Source of the DNA: Rhodospirillales bacterium
GTDB taxonomy: Bacteria; Pseudomonadota; Alphaproteobacteria; ATCC43930; CGMCC-115725
Assembly: GCA_019689675.1 (NCBI GenBank)
Contig: JADGGZ010000007.1
Location: 1 to 44,239, forward strand
Length of the DNA: 44,239 nt
Direction of reading: 5' to 3'
The position numbers and the translations under genes are program-made. Below, in pieces: positions 18,573 to 24,043 of this stretch. The stretch's first letter is position 1, and every line of letters starts with the position of its first letter. Under the pieces are notes generated by a model. It was given only the letters and a program-made list of their open reading frames with translations. It made no database searches and was not told the origin of the DNA.

Positions 18573-19424
18573 TTAACGCGCGCCGAGAAGGCGCTCGATG
18601 CGCTCTTCGGAGCTCGGATGCGTGCGCAACCAGGTGGGAATACGGGCGACGTCGAAACCGGGCAGCGTGCGTTCGAGGATTCCCGCCTGTAAGCGGTCGA
18701 GCTTGGCGAGCGCCGAGGCGAGCGCCATAGGGTCGCCGGTGAGGCGGCTCGCGGCAGCGTCGGCGCCGAATTCGCGGCTCCGCGACAGCGCGAGCAGCAC
18801 GAGATTGGCGGCGATCGGCGCCAGGGCCAGCGCGGCGAGCTCCCACCACGACAGGGCGATGCGGTCGAAAAGGCCGAGCGCCAGCTCGATGATCAGCAGC
18901 ATCAGGGCAAACCGCGACACGCTGCCCGTGACCGCCGTCAGCGCACGGCCGAGCTGCATCAGCGGCAAGTCCCCGTTGGCGATGTGCGCGATCTCGTGGG
19001 CCAGGACAGCCCGCAGCTCGCGCGGGGTCAAGACCTGCGGCACCTTGCGGCCGACGACGATCGCCGGTGCTCCCGCGCCGGCGAGGGTCGCCGCGACGAT
19101 GAGCGGGTTTCGAGAGGCGTAGACGGAAGGCGCCGCACCGATGCCCGCGGCTCGCGCGAGCGCATCGAGATCGGCGAAGAACTCCGGTGCGTCCGAACGC
19201 CGGACCGGCCGCGCGCCGAACATCGAGAGGACCCAGTTCGCGGGTGCGAAGCGTAGAGTGGCGAGGAGGAAGAGCGCGACCATGAACGCCGCGACGACGC
19301 CTTCCCACTTCGCGAGCACCCAGCCGCAGAGCGCAAGAAGCGCACCCAGCGTTGCGACGAGGAGAAGGGACTCGCTGCGTCCACGCGAGCGTCGGCCAGA
19401 CCGCGCAAAGCGCGGCGCGTTCAT
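18573..19424 (-). CDS. M48 family membrane zinc metalloprotease (HtpX-like)
   Basis: Integral membrane peptidase of 283 aa, related to HtpX, which removes damaged membrane proteins. Two hydrophobic segments lie at about 19-36 and 42-60. The zinc site HEIAH is at residues 143-147 and the third ligand Glu is in SREFGAD (E218). Two more hydrophobic segments lie between them. The ATG at 19424 overlaps the stop of the CBS-BON gene (ATGA), so the two are co-translated and would share its FixK-type box. A short palindrome (18565-18579) covers the stop codon. Confidence 0.9.
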   Translation of the reverse strand: MNAPRFARSGRRSRGRSESLLLVATLGALLALCGWVLAKWEGVVAAFMVALFLLATLRFAPANWVLSMFGARPVRRSDAPEFFADLDALARAAGIGAAPSVYASRNPLIVAATLAGAGAPAIVVGRKVPQVLTPRELRAVLAHEIAHIANGDLPLMQLGRALTAVTGSVSRFALMLLIIELALGLFDRIALSWWELAALALAPIAANLVLLALSRSREFGADAAASRLTGDPMALASALAKLDRLQAGILERTLPGFDVARIPTWLRTHPSSEERIERLLGAR

Positions 19425-20182
19425 GCTGGCGGCGGCCGAGGCGTCTCGGACGCGAACGCGTCGGACTCCCCCTCCTCTGCGACTGGTTCCACGATCATGC
19501 CGGAGTAGGGCTCGATCCAGACGAGATGATCGCGCACCTCTCTCACTCCGGGAATGTTCTCGGCCATGACCCTGAGGGCCGCACGCTGATCCTCCGAGGT
19601 GACGAGCCCCCAGATATGGACGACTCCGTTCCGCACCACGAAATTCGGCGCCGTCGGCGGCGCCCAGCGCTGCTTTTCGAATTCGGCGACGAGGCGGTCC
19701 CGTATTTCTTCGTCGTCGAGCGAGCCCGGCTTCGACTCGACGATCTCGGCAGCGAGGGCGCGAACGAGGTTCGCGCGGCTGACGATCCCGACGAGCCTGC
19801 CGTCGCGCAGCACCGGGACACGCTTCACCCGCCGCTCCTCCATGATGCGAACGAGCTGCTCGAGCGGCGTCGTCTCGTCCACCGTCACGACATCGCGCGT
19901 CATGACGTCGCCGACCTTGCGACCGTGACTCTGGACGTAATCTGCCGCCAGCCGGCTCGGACCGAGAAGCAGCTCCAGCCAGCGCGGGCGCCGCTTGACG
20001 GTGCCGGTCTCGGCGCGGCGGAGAAGGTCGCCCTCGGTCACGATGCCGACGAGGCGGCCCGCAGCGTCGACCACCGGCAGACCGCTGATGCGATGCTGCA
20101 GCATCAGGCGGACGGCCTGCTCGATGGGAGCTTTCTCCTCGACCGTTATCACGTTCCGGGTCATCGCATCGGCGGCATTCAT
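19421..20182 (-). CDS. CBS-pair and BON domain protein
   Basis: A 253-aa cytoplasmic protein with two CBS motifs (about residues 1-60 and 90-145) and a BON domain (about 155-225). The CBS signatures are RISGLPVVDAAGRLVGIVTEGDLLRR and VKRVPVLRDGRLVGIVSRANLVR, read in part. CBS pairs bind adenine nucleotides and act as energy sensors; BON domains often bind membranes or lipids. GGAGG precedes the ATG at 20182. A perfect TTGAT-N4-ATCAA box lies 52 bp upstream, suggesting induction at low oxygen by a FixK-type activator. Confidence 0.9.
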   Translation of the reverse strand: MNAADAMTRNVITVEEKAPIEQAVRLMLQHRISGLPVVDAAGRLVGIVTEGDLLRRAETGTVKRRPRWLELLLGPSRLAADYVQSHGRKVGDVMTRDVVTVDETTPLEQLVRIMEERRVKRVPVLRDGRLVGIVSRANLVRALAAEIVESKPGSLDDEEIRDRLVAEFEKQRWAPPTAPNFVVRNGVVHIWGLVTSEDQRAALRVMAENIPGVREVRDHLVWIEPYSGMIVEPVAEEGESDAFASETPRPPPA

Positions 20183-20552
20183 TCCGGGAACCTCCGAATG
20201 TTTCCAATCTTGCCGCGCAGGCCGGCCAACGCGTTGATCGGGATCAAGCGCCCCGAGAGGGGCCGGGCTTCCCGCCCCTTTCGCCGAACCGTGGTCCTCG
20301 GAAGCTACCGCGGCGACCGGCGCGCCGCACGGTGAAAACCATCACGTCGCTCGAGCGATTTGACCCTGAGATGCCGCCGTCCCCGCTTCGGAGGAGCCGC
20401 TCGGGCGGAAACACGAGCGTCGCGACCGCCCCCTCGCCGATCGCGCGCATGCGCCGAAGAAGGCTGAGCCGCCTCACGGCGCGAGCCGGCCTCGCGTTTT
20501 CGCCCGATCCGCGGCGTTGCGGTTGGGGGCCGCAGGCGGTAGAGCTGCCGTC
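20183..20552. other. 370-bp intergenic region holding one FixK/FNR box
   Basis: Divergent gap between the CBS-BON gene and the DHOD-like gene. It contains the box at 20234-20247. The remaining 300 bp are GC-rich; the open frames present have no family resemblance and no ribosome site, and read as shadows. The DHOD frame opens at about 20517, so a slightly longer protein is possible. Confidence 0.6.
20234..20247. promoter_or_regulatory. Perfect FNR/FixK-type binding box
   Basis: TTGAT-CGGG-ATCAA matches the FNR/FixK consensus TTGAT-N4-ATCAA at all ten fixed positions. Its centre is 58 bp from the CBS-BON start codon. With the usual class II spacing of -41.5, transcription would begin about 17 bp before that ATG, just leaving room for the GGAGG site. 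No convincing -10 hexamer is visible. The same box could serve the DHOD-like gene on the other side, 306 bp away. The FixK-like regulator at 23342-24043 has matching recognition residues. Confidence 0.8.
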
Positions 20553-21614
20553 GTGGCCACGTACCGCATCGATCGCAGCTACGACTGGAACTACGAGAAC
20601 GGGCCGGTCTTCGACGGCCCCTACCCGGCCGTCCCGGCAACCCCGCGCAAGACGTTCCTCGGCTACGAGGTCGCCTCCCGTCTCGGCATAGCCGCCGGCC
20701 TTCTGCTCAATTCCCGTTGGGTCGAGACATACGCACGGCTCGGCTTCGACATCCTCACCTACAAGACGGTGCGAAGCCGGCACCGCGCCTGCTACCCCGT
20801 GCCCAACTGGGTTTATCTCGACCCCGGCGTGCCGCTCGACGGTTCCGGCGCGCCGCTCGTCGCCTCGGGAAGCGGAGCCGAGCCTCCCGGCTTTCCGACC
20901 AGCTCGGTTTCGTTCGGAATGCCCTCCAAGGAGCCGGCGGAATGGATGGCCGACGTGGCACGCGCCCGAAGCGCGCTCGGCGACGGCCAGGTTCTGGTGG
21001 TTTCGGTCGTCGGCACGCCCGAGCCGGGGGCCGGCCCTGCCGAGCTCGTCGATGATTTCGCGCGGCTCGCGGCAATGGCGCGCGAAGCCGGTGCGCAGAT
21101 CGTCGAGGCCAACCTCTCCTGCCCGAACGTGACCAGCGCCGAGGGGCAGATCTTCCAGGACCCGGCACTCTCGGGCGAGATCGCGCGGGCGATGCGCGCG
21201 AGCGCCGGCACGCTCCCGATCCTCCTCAAGGCCGGCTATTTCGCCGACGACGCAGCGCTCGGCGCGTATCTGCGCGCGGTTGCGGGACACGTGACAGGGG
21301 TGACCCTGGTCAACGGTCTCTCGCGCCGCGTCGTCGATGCCGCCGGGAAGCCTGCATTCGGACCCGGGCGCGAAGGCTCGGGCGTCCTCGGCGCGGGCGT
21401 GTTCCCCTTCTGCCTCGATGTCGTGCGGCGGGCCGTCGCGCTCATCGAGCGGGAGAAGCTGGACCTTGCCGTCGTCGCCGTAGGCGGGGTCGCGGGGCCA
21501 TCCGAGGTCGGAGCTTATTTCTCGGCCGGCGCCGCCGGGGTGACGATGGGCAGCGCGCCGATGTTCGATCCGCTGCTTGCGGTGCGCCTGAAGGAAACCA
21601 ACCCCGGCTGGTGA
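20553..21614 (+). CDS. Dihydroorotate dehydrogenase-like flavoprotein
   Basis: FMN-binding TIM-barrel enzyme of about 353 aa. Seen features: FDILTYKTVRSR near residue 70, IVEANLSCPN with Cys190 in the position of the class 1 catalytic base, a substrate-Asn motif VNGLSRR, and the phosphate-binding VGGVAGPSEVGAYFSAGAAG. The GTG at 20553 is the likely start; the frame opens at 20517 and no strong ribosome site decides between them. No other pyrimidine gene is nearby, so it may be a second DHOD or a relative acting on another substrate. Its place between two FixK-type boxes hints at use in low oxygen. Confidence 0.8.
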   Translation: MATYRIDRSYDWNYENGPVFDGPYPAVPATPRKTFLGYEVASRLGIAAGLLLNSRWVETYARLGFDILTYKTVRSRHRACYPVPNWVYLDPGVPLDGSGAPLVASGSGAEPPGFPTSSVSFGMPSKEPAEWMADVARARSALGDGQVLVVSVVGTPEPGAGPAELVDDFARLAAMAREAGAQIVEANLSCPNVTSAEGQIFQDPALSGEIARAMRASAGTLPILLKAGYFADDAALGAYLRAVAGHVTGVTLVNGLSRRVVDAAGKPAFGPGREGSGVLGAGVFPFCLDVVRRAVALIEREKLDLAVVAVGGVAGPSEVGAYFSAGAAGVTMGSAPMFDPLLAVRLKETNPGW

Positions 21615-21672: not shown

Positions 21673-21686
21673 TTGATACCGGTCAA
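21673..21686 (+). promoter_or_regulatory. FNR/FixK-type binding box, one mismatch
   Basis: TTGAT-ACCG-GTCAA matches nine of ten consensus positions. Its centre is 42 bp before the ATG of the receiver-domain gene at 21722. At -41.5 spacing the transcript would start about at that ATG, so the mRNA would be leaderless; indeed no Shine-Dalgarno sequence is seen there. Confidence 0.6.
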
Positions 21687-21721: not shown

Positions 21722-22135
21722 ATGAGCGGAGGACCGGCAGCAGCGGTCTGCGTTATCGAAGACGATCCGGCGGTCCGCGACTCGATCCGCACGCTGCTCG
21801 AGTGCGAGTTCGACACGGTCCTCGAGTTCGGCTCTTGCGAGGAGTTTCTCGCGAACCGCACTGAGCGGGTCGCTTGCCTCGTTCTGGACGTCAATCTTCC
21901 GTCGATGAACGGGCTCGATTTCCTCGAGGGCCTGCGCGCGCGCGGCTTCACCGTGCCGGTCATCGTCATCACGGGGAACCCCGATTCCGCGGTGCGGCAG
22001 CGTACCGCGGCTGCGGGCGCCACGCTCCTCGCGAAGCCCTTCGACCACCGGGCCCTCCTCGCTCTTGTGAGGGCGGGTGCGCGGCACGGCGACGCAGGGG
22101 CGGGGCCCCCCGCCGTCAGCCCGCCCGCCGCATAG
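21722..22135 (+). CDS. Single-domain response regulator (CheY/FixJ-type receiver)
   Basis: A 137-aa receiver domain with no output domain. Phosphorylation residues are present: the acidic pair in VIEDDPAVRD, phospho-acceptor D56 in LVLDVNLPSMNG, the Thr in VITG and K105 in LLAKPFDH. A 25-residue Ala/Pro-rich tail follows. No ribosome site is visible before the ATG, and a FixK-type box lies at 21673-21686. It converges on the next receiver gene with a 20-bp tail overlap. No histidine kinase is present in the window, so its partner is unknown. Confidence 0.88.
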   Translation: MSGGPAAAVCVIEDDPAVRDSIRTLLECEFDTVLEFGSCEEFLANRTERVACLVLDVNLPSMNGLDFLEGLRARGFTVPVIVITGNPDSAVRQRTAAAGATLLAKPFDHRALLALVRAGARHGDAGAGPPAVSPPAA

Positions 22136-22549: not shown

Positions 22550-23197
22550 TTACGTATTCTTCCTGACGTGCTGGGCGTCGCGAGGCTTGACGCCGGCGGC
22601 CACCGCCATCCGGATCAGCTCCGGAAGGCTTTTCGCCTGCATCTTGTCCATGAGGCGGGCCCGATAGATCTCGACCGTGCGCGGGCTGATCTCGAGATCG
22701 TAGGCGATCGTCTTGTTCGGCAGCCCGGCAACGAGCCCCTCCAGCACCTCGCGCTCGCGTGTGCTGAGAAGCGCGAGCCGTGCCAGCGATTCATCGCTCT
22801 GCGCCCGTTCGGCAGCGGCCGTCTTCGAGCGCTCCACCGCCTGGCGCACGATCTCGCTCAGCACAGCGCGGTCGAACGGCTTCTCGATGAAATCGACCGC
22901 TCCGGCCTTCATCGCGCGGACCGCCGTCTGGACGTCGGCGTGGCCCGTGACGATCACGACCGCAAGGCCCGGCCAATCCTTGACCACGCGCTCTTGAAGA
23001 GAAAGCCCGTCCATCCCCGGCATGTTGACGTCGAGGAGGAGGCAGCCGATCGCGCGGCGGTCGCAGCCTTCGAGAAAGGCTCGGGCCGACGCGAAGGTTT
23101 TCACATCGTAACCCTCCGACGACAGGAGCGTGTCGAGCGAATCCCGGATCGCCTCGTCGTCATCGACGACGTAGACTTCGCGCGTGCCGGCCGCCAT
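22550..23197 (-). CDS. fixJ: Two-component response regulator, FixJ family
   Basis: A 215-aa transcription regulator with an N-terminal receiver (about 1-125, phospho-acceptor D56 in LLLDVNMPGMDG, Lys in FIEKPFD) and a C-terminal LuxR-type helix-turn-helix (about 142-205: LSTREREVLEGLVAG then NKTIAYDLEISPRTVEIYRA). In rhizobia FixJ, activated by the oxygen-sensing kinase FixL, switches on fixK. Here a FixK-like gene lies directly upstream on the same strand, but no fixL is in the window. The symbol is family-level only; many FixJ relatives answer other signals. Confidence 0.85.
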   Translation of the reverse strand: MAAGTREVYVVDDDEAIRDSLDTLLSSEGYDVKTFASARAFLEGCDRRAIGCLLLDVNMPGMDGLSLQERVVKDWPGLAVVIVTGHADVQTAVRAMKAGAVDFIEKPFDRAVLSEIVRQAVERSKTAAAERAQSDESLARLALLSTREREVLEGLVAGLPNKTIAYDLEISPRTVEIYRARLMDKMQAKSLPELIRMAVAAGVKPRDAQHVRKNT

Positions 23198-23341: not shown

Positions 23342-24043
23342 CTAATCGGCCTCTTCGGCGAGCTCCTCCAGAAGCTCGCGGTCGCGGACGACGACGCGCT
23401 GGGGATGCGGAAGCGCGATCGCGTTCAACTGTTTCAGGCGCGCGAAGGTGCGGCTCACCGTTTCGATCGTGAGGCCGAGATAATCGGCGATGTCGGCGCG
23501 CGTCATCGTGAGCGTGAGCGTCGGCCGGTCCGACGCGGCCTGGCCCGTGCGCTCGATAAGCCCCAGCAGAAACGAGGCCAGTCGCTCGGTCGCGTTCTTC
23601 CGGCCGAGCAGGACCATCTGGCTCTGAGCAGCGACGAGCCGCTCGACCGCGAGGGAAAGGAGGGCGCGGCCGAGACGCGGATTTTCGCCGACCAAGGTCT
23701 CGACGCGCTGGCGGGGCAGCTTGAGGACGACGCTGTCGGTGATCGCCTCGGCAGCGAAGGAATGACTGCTGCCGAGATCCAGGCCGACGAGGTCGCCGGG
23801 AAGGAAGAACGCTGCGAGCTGCCGGCGGCCATCCGGCAAGACCTTGCAGAGCCGGATCGCACCGGAGACGACCCGGTAGAGGTGGTCGGCGAGATCGCCT
23901 TCGTAGAAGAGCGTCGCGTCGCGGGCCACGTCGACGAGCGTGCCGAGGCGATCGAGCGGCGCCATGTCACCGGCGGGCAGCCCTCGGCCCACCGCCGGGG
24001 GAAACGATTGGGTCGATCGAGCGACAGCGGCATTGACGAGCAT
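23342..24043 (-). CDS. Crp/Fnr family transcription regulator, FixK-like
   Basis: A 233-aa protein with an N-terminal cyclic-nucleotide-binding-like domain (about 30-145) and a C-terminal winged helix (HTH about 181-208). The recognition helix ETVSR (E194, S197, R198) has the E-xx-SR pattern that in FNR reads TTGAT half-sites. There are no N-terminal cysteines (only C66 overall), so it should not carry an oxygen-sensing iron-sulfur cluster, which is the FixK type. AAGGAGG precedes the ATG at 24043, preferred to the longer frame start at 24073. Boxes of the matching sequence are at 20234 and 21673. Confidence 0.9.
   Translation of the reverse strand: MLVNAAVARSTQSFPPAVGRGLPAGDMAPLDRLGTLVDVARDATLFYEGDLADHLYRVVSGAIRLCKVLPDGRRQLAAFFLPGDLVGLDLGSSHSFAAEAITDSVVLKLPRQRVETLVGENPRLGRALLSLAVERLVAAQSQMVLLGRKNATERLASFLLGLIERTGQAASDRPTLTLTMTRADIADYLGLTIETVSRTFARLKQLNAIALPHPQRVVVRDRELLEELAEEAD

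Follow-up and report, generated by a model that had tools for sequence, protein, structure and literature searches.

The palindrome TTGATCGGGATCAA at positions 20234-20247 (minus strand) of the 44 239 nt stretch of Rhodospirillales DNA analysed here (the window) very probably serves as a real binding site for a low-oxygen regulator, which would switch on the genes encoding a CBS-BON protein, a putative stress sensor, and an M48-type protease, a putative membrane enzyme. More precisely, we consider it highly likely, on sequence grounds, that the low-oxygen Crp/Fnr regulators of this alphaproteobacterium use it as a functional class II activator site. The initial annotation had proposed that low oxygen controls the CBS-BON operon, and that proposal is strengthened by the enrichment of such sites in the genome, the nature of the genes behind them, footprinting in homologues and a putative −10 element at class II distance. 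A lone motif call has in this way been turned into a placed regulatory site.

The box, which reads TTGATCCCGATCAA on the gene strand, fits every fixed base of the consensus TTGATNNNNATCAA, as the initial annotation had stated, and is the sole exact match when the window is scanned. It has the TTGAN6TCAA palindrome of FixK/FNR-type sites, i.e. those of E-xx-SR regulators. When up to two mismatches were allowed, the window contained seven boxes against 4.09 expected, a number equalled in 18 of 100 shuffles and so not above chance; the case for the box is therefore built on exact matches. Indeed, in the genome from which the window comes (4.22 Mb in 423 contigs), exact TTGATN4ATCAA sites numbered six, against none for the reversed control pattern, and relaxed TTGAYN4RTCAA sites 25, against one; composition, taking the G+C content of the window, predicts about 0.19 exact and 1.9 relaxed sites in 4.22 Mb. 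Genes near these sites were called with a crude gene caller written for this analysis. By its predictions, 18 of the 25 sites are intergenic and have their box centre 24-94 nt away from a start, five lie inside a gene (three of these with a start 78-106 nt away) and the remaining two have no near start. The excess over chance falls ahead of known low-oxygen genes: behind the sites are ccoN (TIGR00780, 752 bits) and an FnrL-like regulator gene, both on contig C141, two genes for Hsp20, one for Usp, one for a PF10116 protein, two for DUF3775 proteins, and genes for a YgaP-like membrane protein and a short-chain dehydrogenase, while a CBS gene lies 165.5 nt from a site also used by an Hsp20 gene. 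Judged by these predicted products, the set has the make-up of the known alphaproteobacterial low-oxygen regulon. The two DUF3775 genes (loci L025, G000:C422, and L033, G000:C44) start 54.5 and 71.5 nt, respectively, from a TTGAYN4RTCAA box, making this family of unknown function a candidate low-oxygen family. At another locus (L027, G000:C162), a receiver-domain gene and a short ORF on the minus strand are separated by a region with two exact boxes (257-270 and 279-292) spaced 22 nt apart. A pattern scan of the window also revealed a second perfect TTGAN6TCAA box, TTGATACCGGTCAA, at 21673-21686 (plus strand), which was absent from the earlier finding. It is centred 42.5 nt upstream of the ATG of a gene for a stand-alone response-regulator receiver domain (21722-22135, plus strand; PF00072), a spacing that would place a class II start at or next to this ATG, so that the transcript is possibly leaderless.

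Downstream of the box at 20234-20247, on the minus strand, lies a gene (19421-20182) for a 253 aa protein with two CBS domains (PF00571, E=2.6e-37, two stretches) followed by a BON domain (PF04972, E=4.9e-13), the arrangement of the CBS-BON family. The next gene (18573-19424, minus strand) encodes a 283 aa M48-type metalloprotease with PF01435 (E=5.4e-23; 82.2 bits against a cut-off of 20.3) and the HExxH motif of peptidase M48 in the form HEIAH; its ATG and the stop codon of the CBS-BON gene overlap (ATGA). The distance of 58.5 nt from the box centre to the CBS-BON ATG means that a class II start, with the box centred at −41.5, would leave a 17 nt leader (20183-20199, minus strand) with a GGAGG Shine-Dalgarno sequence, and the same model predicts a −10 element, AAGATT, at 20206-20211 (minus strand), 23-28 nt past the box. 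This hexamer is weak, which we count against a functional site. The comparative signal comes from 40 homologous promoters whose box centre is 55-90 nt away from the start. In these, A+T content is raised at 23, 24 and 28 nt past the box (−12, −11 and −7 for a box centred at −41.5). At these three core positions it reaches 75%, whereas 2000 within-leader shuffles averaged 37% and never exceeded 52%. When the same 40 promoters were aligned on the ATG, A+T content was 40%. The class II spacing with a 17 nt leader, proposed in the initial annotation, is thus borne out by the distance and by an A+T-rich −10 region at the expected offset in the homologous promoters, and these data support a class II reading with a predicted start near 20199. 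Our current working model is that, when oxygen drops, a FixK-like protein (probably made under FixJ control) and/or an FnrL-like protein would bind the box at −41.5 and recruit RNA polymerase to the −10 element at 20211-20206, and that the transcript from about 20199 would carry the CBS-BON gene and then, through the ATGA overlap, the M48 protease gene; we infer both regulator binding and the direction of the oxygen response.

The conservation of the box ahead of CBS-BON homologues, a check suggested at the outset, was examined in matches from 61 genomes (62 distinct matches in fetched loci) and from at least 80 named loci. After duplicates and rows shorter than 180 aa had been dropped, 135 of 142 were kept, at least three of which match in the CBS part only. 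Among the matches listed, a perfect TTGAN6TCAA box was present within 400 nt upstream of 50/135 homologues, compared with 1/135 for the reversed pattern; in 100 dinucleotide shuffles of the 135 upstream regions the mean number with a box was 0.49 and the maximum three. Position was equally telling, with 47/135 of these listed matches having a perfect box at 50-110 nt (control, none) and 60-70 nt the commonest bin. The box therefore recurs ahead of homologues, although 85/135 of the matches listed lack a perfect box in this 400 nt interval, which we count against a functional site; some of the 85 have one-mismatch boxes. Perfect boxes were absent from four Azospirillum/Skermanella rows and from a clade of 11 Xanthobacteraceae/Hyphomicrobiales rows, and at one locus (L039) the CBS-BON gene follows another gene in what is likely an operon, with two boxes preceding that first gene. 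All four members of the family group (L042, L047, L053 and L055) have boxes at 57.5-61.5 nt. On a quick tree of the homologues, which included no close orthologue of the CBS-BON gene from the window, the presence of a box was clustered, requiring 30 changes compared with a mean of 39.2 after shuffling, with many gains or losses. The genome of the window encodes two further CBS-BON paralogues. The gene on C125 (L115) is preceded by a box, TTGAGCTGCGTCAA, at a distance of 102.5 nt; the gene on C218 (L092) has none, and this too is counted against a functional site. A 13.5 kb island in another genome (L098, G004:C170) contains two CBS-BON homologues, four perfect TTGAN6TCAA boxes and a gene that reads by eye like Hsp20; its neighbour L097 has three boxes, one of them common to both. 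A family that is poorly understood at the protein level thus appears to have been wired repeatedly to a low-oxygen box in Alphaproteobacteria and at two Paraburkholderia loci.

The window itself encodes, on the minus strand, a FixJ response regulator (22550-23197; NF006900 FixJ, 259.7 bits against a cut-off of 255) and a Crp/Fnr regulator (23342-24043; PF13545 and PF00027) that has no N-terminal cysteine cluster. The latter had been credited with the E-xx-SR recognition pattern, and its product indeed contains it, as TIETVSR. FixK has been defined as an E-xx-SR Crp/Fnr protein in which at least one of the four FNR cysteines is missing (Dufour et al., 2010; PMC2908626, consulted in excerpt), and the window regulator has both features. 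Its score with NCBIfam NF050806 FixK (Caulobacter type) was 188.5 bits, below the cut-off of 300, and it is therefore described as FixK-like and not as that equivalog. Ten proteins of this genome match Pfam HTH_Crp_2 above the cut-off, and of these only the window protein and the FnrL-like protein of contig C141 have E-xx-SR, with a third, on C37, having E-xx-CR. A FixL-like candidate is represented only by a fragment at the end of contig C282 (59% identical to a FixL-resembling kinase of a relative), which is a further point against a functional site. The local regulator is not the sole candidate for the box, and its assignment to the box is one that we infer.

Indeed, there is an appreciable, although less than even, chance that the main activator is the C141 FnrL-like protein and not the local FixK-like one, a variant of the explanation preferred here. 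That protein combines a CAAC...C cysteine cluster with the same ETVSR helix as the window regulator, and its gene, beside ccoN, is itself behind a box. However, the local FixK-like gene neighbours that for FixJ, as in FixJ-FixK cascades, and the published control of blr6074, a CBS protein gene of Bradyrhizobium diazoefficiens discussed below, is by FixK2, as far as the excerpted literature goes. A published comparison, as excerpted, describes FNR, FixK and DNR sites as virtually identical (Dufour et al., 2010; PMC2908626). Sequence cannot separate the C141 protein from the local regulator. The same near-identity could be taken to favour a DNR-type regulator responding to NO or another signal, yet the restriction of E-xx-SR to the window and C141 proteins among the HTH_Crp_2 proteins makes this very unlikely.

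When a palindromic site lies between divergent genes, it is important that the gene on the other side is considered, here a dihydroorotate-dehydrogenase-like gene (20553-21614, plus strand) that the box might serve instead of, or besides, the CBS-BON gene. Its start is 312.5 nt from the box centre, a distance on which a promoter for this gene was rejected, whereas the CBS-BON gene is at class II distance and the box tracks the CBS-BON family in other genomes; we regard this explanation as highly improbable. A palindrome arisen by chance and without function, for which the unexceptional number of two-mismatch boxes in the window might be cited, is more improbable still: the exact-match counts, the position, the homologues and the −10 signal all argue against it, and it was rejected on the counts of 6 versus 0, 25 versus 1 and 50/135 versus 1. 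A low-oxygen activator site serving the CBS-BON and M48 genes is the reading that we retain.

The pairing of the CBS-BON gene with an M48 gene was found in no genome examined other than its own. No M48 match was present in the named CBS-BON loci (at least 80), none of the M48 matches in the 61 genomes (E≤1e-20) adjoined a CBS-BON gene, and a search of 43 genomes of the order (E≤1e-35) gave matches in only three genomes besides its own. In the upstream sequences the box nevertheless follows the CBS-BON family, and it also seems, independently, to go with the closest M48 homologues. Measured from the projected first residue, perfect boxes lie 68.5, 110.5 and 209.5 nt upstream in three of the four closest (37-41% identity), and a one-mismatch box lies 80.5 nt upstream in the fourth. 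Among 13 more distant M48 homologues none has a perfect box within 300 nt, and three have a one-mismatch site, in two cases inside the gene. At one locus (L071/L100, G020:C179) the 14-mer of the window occurs in the interval separating an M48 homologue from a divergent gene resembling, by eye, phosphoenolpyruvate synthase, so that this box may serve the other gene. As four cases are few, we treat the link between the M48 genes and the box as a lead; the close M48 set may share the box wiring, and this is a testable lead on membrane proteolysis under oxygen limitation. The CBS-BON protein may sense adenylates, by analogy with the binding of adenosyl nucleotides by CBS domains in general, and the two genes most likely form what would be an energy- or nucleotide-responsive envelope/stress module. 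A bolder and rather unlikely proposal is that a small subfamily of M48 membrane proteases is an undescribed output of FixK/FNR, here translationally coupled to a CBS-BON protein that gates the protease according to the energy state of the cell; if true, this would be an oxygen-controlled module combining a CBS-BON protein and a protease.

A structure search by sequence with the CBS-BON protein returned CBS-domain relatives, among them Rv2626c of Mycobacterium tuberculosis (1xkf, 1y5h), the likeness being that of a CBS protein matched by sequence. Rv2626c is hypoxia-induced and is under a different regulator; to our knowledge, it has no BON domain. We found no literature joining the CBS domain, the BON domain and FixK; a search for the two domains with anaerobic conditions gave only work that was unrelated, as judged by title, and M48 was absent from the papers listed on FixK2 and the microoxic response. 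The only mention of CBS in the excerpted text of PMC4263372 concerns a target of another regulator, MppG. In excerpts of PMC9104804, the FixK2-dependent gene bll4645 of B. diazoefficiens has the identical 14-mer, TTGATCGGGATCAA, in its promoter, but its product is a host attachment protein and not a CBS-BON protein.

The closest published parallel is with blr6074. According to the excerpts of PMC9104804, this gene has the box TTGAGCTGCATCAA at −143, adjoins phaC2 (bll6073) and is expressed 90.9-fold lower in a fixK2 deletion mutant; it is listed (ID 2256) as FixK2-dependent in the excerpted passages of Dufour et al. (2010; PMC2908626) and appears with a value of 35.6 in the part of PMC6515984 comparing protein and gene expression under microoxia. 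A gene of a Bradyrhizobium relative (L208) encodes a CBS-CBS-BON protein by Pfam and is divergent from a PhaC gene with TTGAGCTGCATCAA in between, together with a second box nearer the start; judged through this relative, blr6074 is very probably of the CBS-BON family. The L208 locus yielded no M48 gene. The excerpted core regulon table of PMC2908626 lists a 'putative signal transduction protein with CBS domains' (ID 2256) and Hsp20 under FixK, and UspA under FNR (Dufour et al., 2010), the same kinds of gene as those behind boxes in the genome studied here, whereas an M48 protease was not seen in this part of it. The CBS-BON box is therefore not new in kind, since blr6074, whose apparent orthologues are CBS-BON genes with the same box, is, in the excerpted reports, a published FixK2 target. 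The box fits as an ordinary component into an oxygen-response gene set known from related bacteria, and the M48 partner is the unusual part.
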